From IMG/VR virus record IMGVR_UViG_3300019776_000368, positions 1 to 30,736 of that record: a DNA stretch of 30,736 bases; one strand, 5' to 3'. This DNA is from a virus. Positions 3,552 to 30,690 of the stretch are shown here, piece after piece; position 1 is the first letter of the stretch; every line of letters starts with the position of its first letter. Position numbers and translations under genes: made by a program. The notes under the pieces are model-generated. The model saw only the letters and a program-made list of their open reading frames with translations. It was not told the DNA's origin and did not search any database.

Positions 3552-3757
3552 CAGTTCCTACCCTCATCTGCACTGTTCGCCCCGTTGCTTTGATCTGCGT
3601 CAAACCCGACATTCCCATACATGTACCGACGCAAAATCACTCTGAGCATTTCACCGGGCTTGCGGTCGTCCTTGATCGCCAGACGGCACAAGTCTCTGAA
3701 CTCGCGCTCGGTAAGAAATGCCTTCACCGGCTCGGTGTGCTTGTTGTCGTCCAGCAT
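3551..3757 (-). CDS. Ribbon-helix-helix-like regulator or unknown
   Basis: The 68-aa protein has a pattern compatible with a ribbon-helix-helix (Arc/MetJ-like) fold. A short strand (VKAFLT, about 11-16) is followed by helix EREFRDLCRLAIKD and helix GEMLRVILRRYMYG, then a disordered polar tail rich in Asn/Asp/Ser. The start codon is 1 nt after the stop of the Cro-like gene, with AGGTGG inside that gene's end as ribosome site. The gene is therefore second in the leftward operon and is expressed when repressor is absent. Such small proteins often tune early transcription; the DNA-binding idea is inferred from secondary-structure pattern only. Confidence 0.65.
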   Translation of the reverse strand: MLDDNKHTEPVKAFLTEREFRDLCRLAIKDDRKPGEMLRVILRRYMYGNVGFDADQSNGANSADEGRN

Positions 3758-3758
3758 G

Positions 3759-3998
3759 TCAGGCCACCTTCATTTCTGTGGTTGCCAGTTCAGGCCAGAT
3801 CAAATGCCAATCGTCTGGGAAAAGCTCTTTTCGACTTGCAATTCCACGAGCTTCAGCAATCGGAGCAAGCCTGATCAGCTTGTCGCCTGGAATTCGATTC
3901 GACTCTTTCCATCCAGAGACGGATGGAGGCTTCACGCCAGAAATTGCTGCGACGGCGGTCGTTCCGCCGAATTTGTCAATGAGTTCAATTGCATCCAT
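3759..3998 (-). CDS. Cro/YdaS-like transcriptional regulator
   Basis: This 79-aa helix-turn-helix protein is divergent from the CI-type repressor and therefore in the Cro position. Residues GGTTAVAAISGVKPPSVSGW form a YdaS/Cro-type HTH. Its recognition segment KPPSVS-W is almost the same as in the repressor, implying shared operators. The start chosen is ATG 3998. The strong leftward promoter predicts transcription beginning at about 3998, so the mRNA would be leaderless; an in-frame GTG at 4016 lies within the promoter itself and is unlikely to be used. The protein would repress its own promoter through the operator at 4009-4022. A YdaS name (toxin-antitoxin-like annotation) is possible, but the layout argues for a lytic switch regulator. 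Confidence 0.85.
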   Translation of the reverse strand: MDAIELIDKFGGTTAVAAISGVKPPSVSGWKESNRIPGDKLIRLAPIAEARGIASRKELFPDDWHLIWPELATTEMKVA

Positions 3999-4004
3999 CA
4001 GCCC

Positions 4005-4033
4005 ATTATTAGGCACACCTTACCTTTGGTCAA
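4005..4033 (-). promoter_or_regulatory. Leftward early promoter
   Basis: On the minus strand, -35 TTGACC (4033-4028) and -10 AATAAT (4010-4005) are separated by 17 bp. The operator at 4009-4022 covers the spacer end and the -10, and the operator at 4033-4046 abuts the -35. The predicted start site is about 3998, coinciding with the A of the Cro ATG. It drives Cro, the RHH-like protein, the primase-helicase, RusA and onward; no terminator is seen in that direction inside the window. Confidence 0.75.
4009..4022. promoter_or_regulatory. Operator 1 (immunity region)
   Basis: TTAGGCACACCTTA is an imperfect dyad of the TTAGGC-NN-GCCTAA class. It overlaps the -10 and spacer of the leftward promoter, so occupancy would block Cro and primase transcription. 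It is one of five related sites spaced 24-25 bp within each cluster. Confidence 0.7.
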
Positions 4034-4046
4034 TAGGCGAGCCTTA
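4033..4046. promoter_or_regulatory. Operator 2 (immunity region)
   Basis: ATAGGCGAGCCTTA, centred 24 bp from operator 1. It abuts the -35 of the leftward promoter and lies just before a TATAAC (4045-4050) that could be the -10 of a weak rightward repressor promoter. That promoter lacks a good -35, as expected if the repressor activates its own gene (lambda PRM-like); this part is inference. Confidence 0.7.
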
Positions 4047-4057
4047 TAACTTTCATC

Positions 4058-4071
4058 TTAGGATTGCCTTA
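4058..4071. promoter_or_regulatory. Operator 3, overlapping the repressor ribosome site and start
   Basis: TTAGGATTGCCTTA, 25 bp from operator 2, is the most degenerate site. It contains the repressor's Shine-Dalgarno sequence (AGGA, 4060-4063), and its last base is the A of the repressor ATG. It could serve for negative autoregulation of the repressor gene at high concentration or for Cro action. Confidence 0.6.
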
Positions 4072-4790
4072 TGTCTACATTGCAGGACCGTATCCTTGAG
4101 GTTTCCGCAGAGCTACCAAGAGGGTGGCAAGCAAAATTGGCGCGTGTGTGCGGCATCAAGCCGCCTTCAGTTTCAGATTGGGTTACTGGGAAAACCTTGA
4201 CGATCGACGGCGAAAACTTGTTGGTAGCTGCCGACTTTTTTAAGGTCAATCCTCAATGGTTATCTTCCGGGAAAGGCCCAAAGCACGCCATCACAGGCAC
4301 CGCCTCAACTAGCCAAGGCCAGACGACCAGTGGGGCTGGGTTTGTCGTCACCCCGACAAACGCCGAATATGCCGGTATCCCACGAACGATGCGAGCAACT
4401 CCTGTAGTTGGTACAGCCAAGATGGGAGACGACGGTTATTACGAAGAATTGCAGCATCCGCCGGGGCATGGAGATGGCGTTGTTGACGGCTACAGCTCAG
4501 ACCCGAATGCGTATGCACTCCGCGTCAAAGGCGACAGCATGCATCCAGCAATCCGGCATGGTCAATTTGTGGTTGTTGATCCAAATGGACAATGCATCCC
4601 TGGCGAATACGTTGTGATCTCTCTACTCAACGGGAAAAAGATGGTCAAAGAACTGGTGATTGAGCGGCCCGACGAGATCGTGATCGAGTCAGTCAATGGG
4701 AACCATCGGCAAACCATTGCAAAAACTGAGATTGAAAAAATTCACCCTGTTGGAGCAGTCGTAGCGGCGAGCAAGTGGAGGAGTGAGTGA
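4071..4790 (+). CDS. CI-type S24 repressor (LexA-like)
   Basis: The 239-aa lysogeny repressor has an N-terminal HTH (about 18-40: WQAKLARVCGIKPPSVSDW), a linker (about 65-110) and a C-terminal LexA/S24 peptidase domain with Ser156 in KGDSMHP and Lys193 in MVKEL as the catalytic dyad. Such repressors dimerise on operators and self-cleave when RecA is activated; the cleavage site is probably in the PVVGTAKMG region (about 111-119), though no canonical Ala-Gly is present. AGGA lies 7 nt before the ATG. The linker contains ITGTASTSQGQT (residues 74-85), identical to part of the repeat in the virion protein at the right end of the window. It overlaps the DUF6232 gene by 1 nt. Confidence 0.93.
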   Translation: MSTLQDRILEVSAELPRGWQAKLARVCGIKPPSVSDWVTGKTLTIDGENLLVAADFFKVNPQWLSSGKGPKHAITGTASTSQGQTTSGAGFVVTPTNAEYAGIPRTMRATPVVGTAKMGDDGYYEELQHPPGHGDGVVDGYSSDPNAYALRVKGDSMHPAIRHGQFVVVDPNGQCIPGEYVVISLLNGKKMVKELVIERPDEIVIESVNGNHRQTIAKTEIEKIHPVGAVVAASKWRSE

Positions 4791-5143
4791 TGGAAGAAGT
4801 GGTGTATCTCAAGAGTGAAAATGCCGAAGTCACCTCAACGAAAATTGTCATCAATGGCGCGACATACGCCACCAGAAATGTCGCATCCGTTCGGATTGGA
4901 GATGTCCCCATCGGATCGGCCCCGATCTTGCTGGCGACATTCGGATGCCTGCTCCTTTTTGGAAGCTGGCAACTCGGAGTCCCAATGATCTTCATTGGAT
5001 TGGCCATCGGGATTTCCAGAGGTTGGACCAACTCACTGGTGCTGACCGCTGGAGGAGGTGAAGTAATGGCCGTCAAATCGACTGACGATGCATTTCTCAA
5101 GCAAGTTCACGACGCCATAGTTCAAGCGATCTCGGCCAGATAG
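4790..5143 (+). CDS. DUF6232-like membrane protein, coupled to the repressor
   Basis: This 117-aa protein starts at the ATG overlapping the repressor stop (TGATG), with GGAGG upstream; an in-frame GTG lies one codon earlier. The N-terminal part is beta-rich and polar (EVTSTKIVINGATYATRNVASV). Two adjacent hydrophobic stretches (about 47-62 and 64-76) suggest a membrane hairpin, and the C-terminus is a soluble domain ending in a helix (DDAFLKQVHDAIVQAI). It matches the pattern of DUF6232, whose function is unknown. Because it is coupled to the repressor and followed directly by a terminator, it should be made in the lysogen. A superinfection-exclusion or lysogenic-conversion role is inferred from position only. 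Confidence 0.75.
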   Translation: MEEVVYLKSENAEVTSTKIVINGATYATRNVASVRIGDVPIGSAPILLATFGCLLLFGSWQLGVPMIFIGLAIGISRGWTNSLVLTAGGGEVMAVKSTDDAFLKQVHDAIVQAISAR

Positions 5144-5161
5144 AGCCCAACACATCAATGC

Positions 5162-5187
5162 AGCCGCCTACCAGGGCGGCTTTTTTT
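5162..5187 (+). terminator. Rho-independent terminator after the repressor operon
   Basis: AGCCGCC (5162-5168) pairs with GGCGGCT (5175-5181) around the loop TACCAG, and T residues run from 5181 to 5187. It ends the repressor/DUF6232 transcript just before the second operator cluster, separating lysogenic from early rightward transcription. Confidence 0.92.
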
Positions 5188-5205
5188 GCGTTCACTCAAA
5201 TTTTG

Positions 5206-5219
5206 TTAGGCTTGCCTAT
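5206..5219. promoter_or_regulatory. Operator 4 (right early promoter)
   Basis: TTAGGCTTGCCTAT is a near-perfect dyad ending at the first base of the -35 box of the rightward promoter. It is placed exactly as operator 2 is relative to the leftward promoter. Confidence 0.75.
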
Positions 5220-5247
5220 TGACATCTTTATTAGGCACGCCTATTAT
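5219..5247 (+). promoter_or_regulatory. Rightward early promoter
   Basis: Consensus -35 TTGACA (5219-5224) and -10 TATTAT (5242-5247) are separated by 17 bp. Operator 5 fills the spacer and enters the -10. The predicted start is about 5254, leaving a leader of about 26 nt before the Rha-like gene. It would drive the whole early operon to 14245. Confidence 0.9.
5231..5244. promoter_or_regulatory. Operator 5 (inside the right early promoter)
   Basis: TTAGGCACGCCTAT, 25 bp from operator 4, lies between the -35 and -10 boxes. Binding here would directly exclude RNA polymerase, so the repressor and the Cro-like protein should shut the rightward operon. Confidence 0.8.
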
Positions 5248-5279
5248 TCGCCCATCGCAGCAAAGATGGAGTGAACGAG

Positions 5280-5912
5280 ATGAACCTGATCACGACAGCG
5301 GCAACGGTCACCATGACCAGCCGGGAAATTGCCGACCTGACCGGCAAGCAGCACCAGCATATCAAGCGAGACATCGAGAAAATGTTCTCGGCGCTCGGCT
5401 TGGATGCGTCCACTTTTGGACACATCTACACCGACGCTTCCAACCGCAAGCAAACCGAGTACCGACTTCCAAAGCGCGAAACCCTGATCCTGGTCAGCGG
5501 CTACGACACCGTGCTTCGCGCCAAGGTAGTGGATCGTGTCGCCGAACTGGAGCAGCAGAACGTCCCCAAGACCCCGGCTCACATGCTGCTGGCTATGGCC
5601 CAGCAGTTCCTGGCCTATGAGCAGGAGCAGCAGCGTCAGTCCACCGAGATCGCACGCATTCAAGAGTCTGTGGCAGTCATTGAGGCTCGCACGCAGCCAG
5701 AGAACAAGCACTTCACCGTCCTTGGCTACGCCAACCTGATCGGAAAGCGCATTGACCTGAAGGAAGCGGCCAAGCTGGGCAAGAAATGCGCAGAACTCTC
5801 GCGCACTCAAGGCATCCAGATTGGCGACGTTCGTGACCCGCGCTTTGGCAACGTCCACAGCTATCACGAATCCATTCTCCAAGCCGTCATGGATAGCGAG
5901 GTGTCGGCATGA
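5280..5912 (+). CDS. Rha-family phage regulatory protein
   Basis: This protein of about 210 aa has the N-terminal domain of the phage regulatory protein Rha family (TSREIADLTGKQHQHIKRDIEKM, then a TYR-rich strand and TLILVSGYDTVLRAKVVDR), associated with antirepression and interference with infection in integration-host-factor-defective hosts. A coiled, Gln/Glu-rich linker (about 110-145) precedes a second conserved domain (FTVLGYANLIGKRIDLKEAAKLGKKC). ATG 5280 is chosen because GGAG (5268-5271) is 8 nt upstream; an in-frame GTG at 5271 overlaps that site. It is the first gene after the rightward promoter, so it is made at once on induction and could counteract the repressor (inference). Confidence 0.85.
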   Translation: MNLITTAATVTMTSREIADLTGKQHQHIKRDIEKMFSALGLDASTFGHIYTDASNRKQTEYRLPKRETLILVSGYDTVLRAKVVDRVAELEQQNVPKTPAHMLLAMAQQFLAYEQEQQRQSTEIARIQESVAVIEARTQPENKHFTVLGYANLIGKRIDLKEAAKLGKKCAELSRTQGIQIGDVRDPRFGNVHSYHESILQAVMDSEVSA

Positions 5913-29637: not shown

Positions 29638-30690
29638 CTACACGCCGAAGAAAAGAATCTCGTTGTCGCGGTGCTTGCGCGGCCTGCGCATCGGTGTCGG
29701 CACATGCGTCGGGACATAGGCCGCAGGCATGTAAATCTTACGGTGCGTGCTGCCGCCCGTTGTCGTCTGCGTGCCTGTTGCGGTGCCCGTCGCCATGACG
29801 GTCTGGCCTTGCCCGCTTGATGCCGTTCCGGTGATCGCCAGTAGTGATGTACCAACAGCAGAGACCGATTGCCCTTGAGACGTTGCGGCAGTGCCGGTGA
29901 ACGTCTCGGAACCAGACTCTGATGTGGTCTGGCCCTGGGCCGTTGATGCGGACCCGGTGAAGGTCTGCCCACCTGATGCTGAGACGGTCTGTCCCTGCGA
30001 GGTGGTGGCCGGGCCGGTAAAGGTTTGGGCTCCGGTAGCTGTCGCGGTCTGCGCTTCTGAAGTCGTCGTCGAGCCGGTGAACGTCTGCGATCCCGTTGCG
30101 CTTGCTGTCTGGCCTTGCGTCGTGCTCGTAGCCCCGGTGAACGTCTGCGCACCAGTGCCTGCAACGGTCTGCCCCTCTGCCGTGCTGGCCGTTCCGGTGT
30201 TCCCTGATGCCTGGGAACCGGAGGCATCGACTGTTTGGCTCTGCGCCGTGGTGGCCGACCCGGTAAACGTCTGGGCGCCAGTTGCACTGGCCGTCTGGCC
30301 TTCAGCAGTTGCCGCCGACCCAGTGAAGGTCTGCGATCCAGTAGCTGCTGCGGTTTGTCCTTCAGCGGTCGCCGCGCTTCCTGCGAAGGTTTGGGCGCCA
30401 CTGGCTGCGGCAGTTTGCCCCTCGGCAGTAGCCGCGACTCCCGTGAATGTCTGCGTGCCAGTTGCCGCGACAGTCTCGGCCTGGCTGGATGTGGCCGAGC
30501 CGGTAAAGGTCTGCGCGCCAGTTGCGCTGACCGTCTCGCCTTGTTTTGTCGCCGCAGTGCCGGTGAAGGTCTCAGCGCCAGTGGCCGACGCGGTCTGGCC
30601 CTGCGATGTAGACGCAGTTCCAGTGATTGAAACCGCAGCAGCAGGCAGGCCCGAAATCGGCAGTTGTGATATTGCGCCGAAGCCGAGCAT
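29638..30690 (-). CDS. Virion protein with fourteen 20-residue repeats
   Basis: This 350-aa protein starts MLGFGAISQLPISGL, a leader typical of small phage head-region proteins. Residues 22-305 are 14 repeats of about 20 aa with consensus FTGSATTSQGQTVSATGAQT, two of them 22 aa long. A basic C-terminus (IYMPAAYVPTHVPTPMRRPR) follows. The composition (Thr, Ser, Gly, Ala, Gln) predicts an extended beta-fibrous or beta-solenoid structure, perhaps a head fibre or decoration. AAGGGGGA precedes the ATG. It is 51 nt upstream of the protease-capsid gene. The repeat motif also appears once in the repressor linker. Function is not established. Confidence 0.82.
   Translation of the reverse strand: MLGFGAISQLPISGLPAAAVSITGTASTSQGQTASATGAETFTGTAATKQGETVSATGAQTFTGSATSSQAETVAATGTQTFTGVAATAEGQTAAASGAQTFAGSAATAEGQTAAATGSQTFTGSAATAEGQTASATGAQTFTGSATTAQSQTVDASGSQASGNTGTASTAEGQTVAGTGAQTFTGATSTTQGQTASATGSQTFTGSTTTSEAQTATATGAQTFTGPATTSQGQTVSASGGQTFTGSASTAQGQTTSESGSETFTGTAATSQGQSVSAVGTSLLAITGTASSGQGQTVMATGTATGTQTTTGGSTHRKIYMPAAYVPTHVPTPMRRPRKHRDNEILFFGV
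29776..30627 (-). repeat. Tandem array of 60-bp coding repeats
   Basis: Fourteen divergent units of 60 bp (two of 66 bp) encode the repeat domain. The units keep the encoded consensus but differ at many third positions, indicating old duplication or selection at the protein level. Repeat number could still vary by recombination. They are coding repeats, not CRISPR. Confidence 0.85.

Follow-up and report, generated by a model that had tools for sequence, protein, structure and literature searches.

The immunity region of lambda has divergent cI and cro genes around three operators at about 24-bp spacing. OR2 touches the -35 element of PR, and OR1 lies over the -10. A further three sites form OL beyond the cI operon, and the leaderless gene is cI.

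In the immB regions of N15 and phiKO2, cB and cro are separated by three OR sites, and there are two OL sites and an all-alpha Cro, so that a plan of three plus two sites is already known (PMC4997575). The operators are 16 bp long, and OL precedes a plasmid replication gene (PMC4997575).

CP-933P of E. coli O157:H7 has a YdaS-type Cro and a divergent repressor, PaaR2, with lambda-like regulation. YdaS and the repressor were footprinted on overlapping operators, and further repeats occur at PL. The repeats are 18 bp long with the consensus GTTTAGTAA, and the leaderless mRNA is that of the repressor and not that of cro (PMC8630535).

Rac of E. coli K-12 was studied by Krishnamurthi et al. in 2017, who found that the DNA separating racR from ydaS holds three variant GCCTAA/TTAGGC repeats and showed RacR binding to them by thermal shift, ChIP-qPCR, and EMSA (PMC5700373). 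The Rac DNA of MG1655 (L251) contains TTAGGC-N3-GCCTAA sites at 25-26 bp, in the order site-ATTGAC-site-TAATAT. The recognition helices read VQPPSIYDW in RacR and VSPPSVNQW in YdaS. The start codons of racR and ydaS are well away from the operators and are served by AGGAG/GGAG-like ribosome sites.

The window analysed here is an IMG/VR virus record of 30,736 bp. One of its regions is read, with a probability of about 90%, as a temperate-phage immunity region with a CI/Cro switch on five TTAGGC-NN-GCCTAA operators. The reading is supported by the sites and their conservation, by promoters recognised from their sequence, and by the fold and family of both proteins. Three of the sites (4009-4071) lie between the leftward Cro-like gene and the rightward repressor gene. 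A second operator-promoter module (5206-5247) lies beyond the cI operon, ahead of early recombination genes. The gene order is that of lambda, mirrored. The features of the region are as follows.

3762-3998 (stop 3759-3761), minus strand: cro-like gene, 79 aa, P22-Cro/YdaS type, with its ATG 6 nt past the PR -10.
4005-4033, minus strand: PR-like promoter of cro, with TTGACC (4033-4028), a 17-bp spacer, and AATAAT (4010-4005).
4009-4022: putative operator O1 (OR1-like), TTAGGCACACCTTA, over the spacer and -10 edge of the leftward PR.
4033-4046: putative operator O2 (OR2-like), ATAGGCGAGCCTTA, abutting the PR -35 with 1 bp in common; the opposite edge runs into the candidate PRM -10.
4045-4050, plus strand: candidate PRM -10 for cI, TATAAC, picked by sequence inspection, with a weak -35.
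4058-4071: putative operator O3 (OR3-like), TTAGGATTGCCTTA, holding the predicted cI Shine-Dalgarno and ending on the A of the cI ATG.
4071-4790 (coding to 4787), plus strand: cI-like repressor gene, 239 aa, with HTH and S24 domain (Ser156/Lys193).
4790-5143, plus strand: gene for a DUF6232 putative membrane protein, whose start codon shares bases with the cI stop (TGATG); lambda has rexAB in this position.
5162-5188, plus strand: hairpin resembling an intrinsic terminator, between the cI operon and OL.
5206-5219: putative operator OL2, TTAGGCTTGCCTAT, abutting the PL -35.
5219-5247, plus strand: PL-like promoter, with TTGACA (5219-5224), a 17-bp spacer, and TATTAT (5242-5247).
5231-5244: putative operator OL1, TTAGGCACGCCTAT, covering the spacer and the -10 edge of PL.
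5247-5275, plus strand: inverted repeat spanning the PL start, with arms at 5247-5256 (left) and 5265-5275 (right).
5280-5912, plus strand: first PL gene, Rha/anti-repressor-like, 210 aa, with recombination genes next.

All five dyads are 14 bp long with a 2-bp centre and carry the palindromic half-site TTAGGC. Their start-to-start spacings are 24, 25, and 25. When up to one mismatch to TWAGGCNNGCCTWA is allowed, exactly these five sites and no others are found in the entire record. A matrix reading [T/a][T/a]AGG[C/a/t] was made for the half-site; the window was excluded to avoid circularity, and 14 other loci contributed 136 half-sites. With this matrix, the dyads of the window take ranks 1-5 of 30,723 positions, scoring 17.6-19.2 bits, while the sixth position scores 10.9. 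The original prediction had placed five related 14-bp dyads in two clusters at 24-25 bp spacing, and its positions were exact. It is hardly credible that the clusters are due to chance or form a repeat element of no regulatory role. A loose search with up to three mismatches does give 10 matches against 5.9 expected, which is not significant alone. In contrast, the strict window-independent test gives five matches, and the lowest of the five scores was never reached in randomised DNA (60 first-order Markov sequences of the window length and 1000 of the 3800-5500 region). In addition, diverged phages keep the exact positions of the sites relative to the -35, the -10, and the start codons.

The search of related phages for TTAGGC-NN-GCCTAA, which had been proposed as a check, recovered the arrangement next to divergent CI/Cro genes in some 30 different viral loci, among which are prophages of Paracidovorax and Achromobacter. 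The relatives were recruited by protein and then scanned for sites. Both clusters with the same spacings occur in L020 (a Paracidovorax citrulli contig), L021, L022, L094, L096-L098, L104-L106, L171, and L172. L047 also shows three plus two sites, one of them adjoining a -35 and another lying over the -10, and the Acinetobacter phage Ab1656-2 (L005) has both clusters and a third OL site. Another scan of IMG/VR, for operator pairs and using no protein information, gave 61 stretches. About half of these are AT-flanked modules beside CI/Cro-like genes, and the remainder are GC-rich chance matches lacking a CI/Cro-like gene. In the aligned modules, the -35 ATTGAC abuts the upstream site and the -10 grows from the downstream site in nearly every case. 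A genome-contig scan for the PL module gave four stretches only, in Achromobacter ruhlandii, A. dolens, Paracidovorax citrulli, and L093. The last is an 8-kb contig labelled as a Saccharibacteria MAG; it matches the pattern, has no cluster by the matrix, and may be a chance match or mis-binned. At the DNA level, positions 3900-5300 of the window had no match in the phage collection. The relatives of the Achromobacter type (L042, L067, L071, L083, L087, L088, L090, and L092) have four OR-like sites at 22-bp steps, the extra one being weak.

The two modules of the window are built alike: one site directly adjoins a TTGAC -35, and the site after it lies over the spacer and -10. This shared build, also part of the original prediction, is kept in many related phages. 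A scan of 3700-5600 for sigma70-like promoters found two, which are PR and PL; shuffled sequences average 1.2, so the scan alone is weak. The predicted starts near 3998 and 5253/5254 are consistent with the -10 elements. The proposed lambda-like OL/OR logic with three plus two sites is well supported by the layout, the CI/Cro pair, and the conservation in related phages.

The repressor (P0001) has a Peptidase_S24 domain (PF00717, 3.6e-16) with conserved Ser156 and Lys193. Predicted folds were compared because a search of its sequence against the PDB gave no match. The N-domain of the model resembles P22 c2 repressor-operator complexes (TM 0.83), and the C-domain resembles the lambda repressor C-domain with its cleavage region (TM 0.73). 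In self-cleaving S24 repressors, the scissile bond is Ala-Gly or Cys-Gly and lies some 35-40 residues ahead of the Ser. In the window and its close relatives this position reads Ala116-Lys117 (GTAKMG), which makes RecA-triggered cleavage of CI uncertain. L021 has Ala-Gly there, and the Ala101-Gly102 of the window CI lies further upstream than the usual position. The CI linker (4290-4334) contains ITGTASTSQGQT, a 12-residue stretch that also occurs in the repeats of about 20 residues of the protein at 29638-30690 on the minus strand; just 27 of the 45 bases are identical between the two at the DNA level. The DUF6232 gene that follows cI is possibly a lysogen-expressed gene of the exclusion type.

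The Cro model consists of helices only (pLDDT 89), which is the all-alpha Cro fold. Its nearest structures are Xfaso1 Cro, N15 Cro, P22 Cro, and CP-933P YdaS, with weak Foldseek E-values (best 0.012). The protein matches the PHROG 35 transcriptional repressor at 4.9e-14. Its Pfam matches are below the curated cut-offs, at 27.1 against 30 bits for YdaS_toxin (PF15943) and 24.2 against 30.2 bits for P22_Cro (PF14549). The first of these families brings up a RacR-YdaS-like toxin/antitoxin module of atypical form in place of a lytic switch, and RacR, YdaS, and YdaT have been described as a toxin system (PMC5700373, PMC5700377). This is very improbable for the window. YdaS and YdaT have been read from their genetic context as the phage regulators Cro and CII (PMC5917428), with later support for Rac and CP-933P. 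Moreover, the module of the window has a phage's replication operon on one side and its recombination operon on the other: primase-helicase and RusA genes lie leftward of cro, integrase and structural genes are found elsewhere in the record, and Sak4-like (annealing protein), SSB-like, and nuclease-like genes lie beyond the Rha/anti-repressor-like gene. No ydaT homologue was seen adjoining cro.

A nearly identical recognition segment had been pointed out in the repressor (GIKPPSVSDW) and the Cro-like protein (GVKPPSVSGW), and the predicted models place it in the third HTH helix of each, at residues 31-39 of CI (PPSVSDWVT) and residues 24-33 of Cro. Among de-replicated, protein-recruited loci, a cluster accompanies 18 of the 20 that have a (P/S)S(V/I) helix in CI or Cro and none of the nine with other helices (Fisher p=5.5e-6, an optimistic value since the loci are related, the recruiting profiles contain PSVS, and five loci helped to build the matrix). 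CI relatives recruited through the peptidase domain alone (L007-L019) served as negative controls and lack the operator. It is unlikely, though conceivable, that the dyads serve the repressor alone and that Cro uses a single site or another sequence, in which case the region would not be a full double-regulator switch. The precedent is phiKO2, where a 3+2 plan and an all-alpha Cro go together with Cro binding at OR3 alone (PMC4997575), and the Cro of PY54 uses a single site (PMC4488713). The (P)PSVS(D/G)W segment, however, is common to Cro and CI, both of the window and of almost every relative, and the relatives with the closest Cro (65-75% identity) retain all five sites. These points favour a switch in which both proteins use the dyads, even though the site preference of CI and Cro could differ.

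The operator had been regarded as apparently unnamed, which does not hold, as the TTAGGC/GCCTAA repeats were already published for Rac together with RacR binding (PMC5700373). A literature search with the full 14-mers gave DtxR papers only, while the half-site combined with YdaS led to RacR. Rac and the window share the half-site, the three sites between a divergent repressor and a Cro-like gene, a second module downstream of the repressor gene (TTAGGCATAGCCTATTGACAATCAATTAGGCATTACCTATAG in Rac), and a PPS(V/I) recognition helix in both regulators. They differ at the centre of the site, which is 3 bp in Rac (15-bp site) and 2 bp in the window (14-bp site), and the RacR binding data are for this reason not directly transferable. 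RacR (158 aa, as read from L251) has no S24 domain, unlike P0001, and the two are not homologous over the full RacR length. The start codons also differ in placement, as cro is predicted to be leaderless and cI starts in O3 in the window. Judged from its sequence, the window carries a lambda-like switch with a Rac-type half-site, set apart from Rac by its 2-bp centre and its S24 repressor.

Compared to lambda, the window has the same divergent cI/cro pair around three sites at about 24-bp spacing, the same contact of the OR2-like site with the PR -35 and of the OR1-like site with the -10, and an OL beyond the cI operon. In contrast, the sequence and length of the operators differ, there are two OL sites in place of three, Cro is of the all-alpha P22/YdaS type, the gene predicted to be leaderless is cro, and the candidate PRM puts O1 instead of O2 at about -41.5. 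The N15 and phiKO2 operators resemble those of the window in number and are of another sequence. The Acinetobacter vieuviruses Ab1656-2 and Ab105-3phi place their OR and OL clusters as the window does, with Cro 61% and CI 36% identical. Unlike in the window, the sixth half-site base is mostly A/T, there is a third OL site, and annotated cII/O/P genes follow cro, which has a leader with a Shine-Dalgarno.

In the proposed mechanism, CI dimers made from 4071-4790 would bind the five operators. CI on O1 and O2 would shut the leftward promoter, and with it cro, then primase-helicase, RusA, and further leftward genes. CI on OL1 and OL2 would shut the rightward promoter of the Rha/anti-repressor-like gene and the Sak4-like, SSB-like, and nuclease-like genes after it. 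Both effects would parallel those of lambda CI at OR and OL. Cro, with its near-identical recognition helix, would take the same sites when lytic growth starts and should favour cI shut-off, by analogy with lambda and CP-933P. The binding by CI and Cro, the order of occupancy, the activation of cI, and the induction route are steps that we infer. The anti-repressor/Rha family of the first PL gene suggests another conceivable induction route.

The region is of an ordinary kind with several predicted family-wide twists. The cro ATG is 5-7 nt beyond the PR -10 in 22 of 31 loci, among them the window (3996-4010), L020, L021, L022, L094, L096-L098, and others. This short gap predicts a leaderless cro mRNA in these loci, the reverse of lambda. 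The AGGA at 4060-4063, from the imperfect O3 half TTAGGA, is the likely cI Shine-Dalgarno, and the cI ATG begins at the last O3 base (O3 start +13) in 17 of 19 loci. O3 is thus predicted to double as the cI ribosome-binding site, and since it supplies both, it would not be optimisable as an operator alone.

The cI RNA must begin upstream of the AGGA in O3, and TATAAC (4045-4050) is therefore the best PRM -10. With this element, O1, O2, and O3 are centred at about -41.5, -17.5, and +7.5. The candidate PRM would be shifted by one operator compared to lambda, and the activating position would be that of O1 rather than O2. This shift is held loosely because the -10 is only partly conserved, with -10-like hexamers at comparable offsets in some relatives. 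Placing O2 at -42, as in a lambda-like PRM, was discarded because the transcription start would then land inside cI.

The inverted repeat at the PL start holds the GGAG Shine-Dalgarno of the Rha/anti-repressor-like gene in its right arm. Across 40 de-replicated PL modules, the left arm (last -10 base to about +2) pairs better with its own downstream region than with the downstream regions of other loci (permutation p=5e-5), whereas the PR modules show no effect in the same test (p=0.35). The Shine-Dalgarno of the ORF starting just beyond sits in the right arm in 8 of the 16 best modules, window included. Many relatives have similar repeats with compensating changes, and several (L005, L031, L094, and L106) have none. 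The left arm is mostly upstream of the predicted +1, so the hairpin would form only in read-through RNA, where it may hide the ribosome site of the first PL gene. Matching logic is documented for T4 gene e (PMC3014915).

A distinct sub-type of the switch would combine the leaderless cro, the cI ribosome site in O3, a shifted PRM at which O1 serves for repression of PR as well as for activation of PRM, and a PL hairpin that insulates. This combination is possible and is put forward tentatively. If true, it is widespread, and its translational control is inverted and layered onto the operators. With a leaderless cro and a cI ribosome site lying in an operator, the synthesis of the two regulators would be set differently from that in lambda.

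The immunity specificity is common to Burkholderiales phages, with a variant in Acinetobacter, and is tied to the published RacR binding system. Repressor targets and superinfection-immunity groups become predictable from sequence alone, and the CI/Cro pairs with matched operators are a ready data set for rules of helix-operator recognition. L101 and L102, which have helices of the PPSVSGW type, contain hybrid sites in which a TTAGGA half is combined with a TTAGC(A/T) or ATAGCC half. By inspection, GTTAGC-type repeats replace TTAGGC upstream of CI in L009, L010, L011, and L016, where the helices read SHSAVSQW or SSSAVTQW. These sister repressors form a natural helix/operator swap pair.
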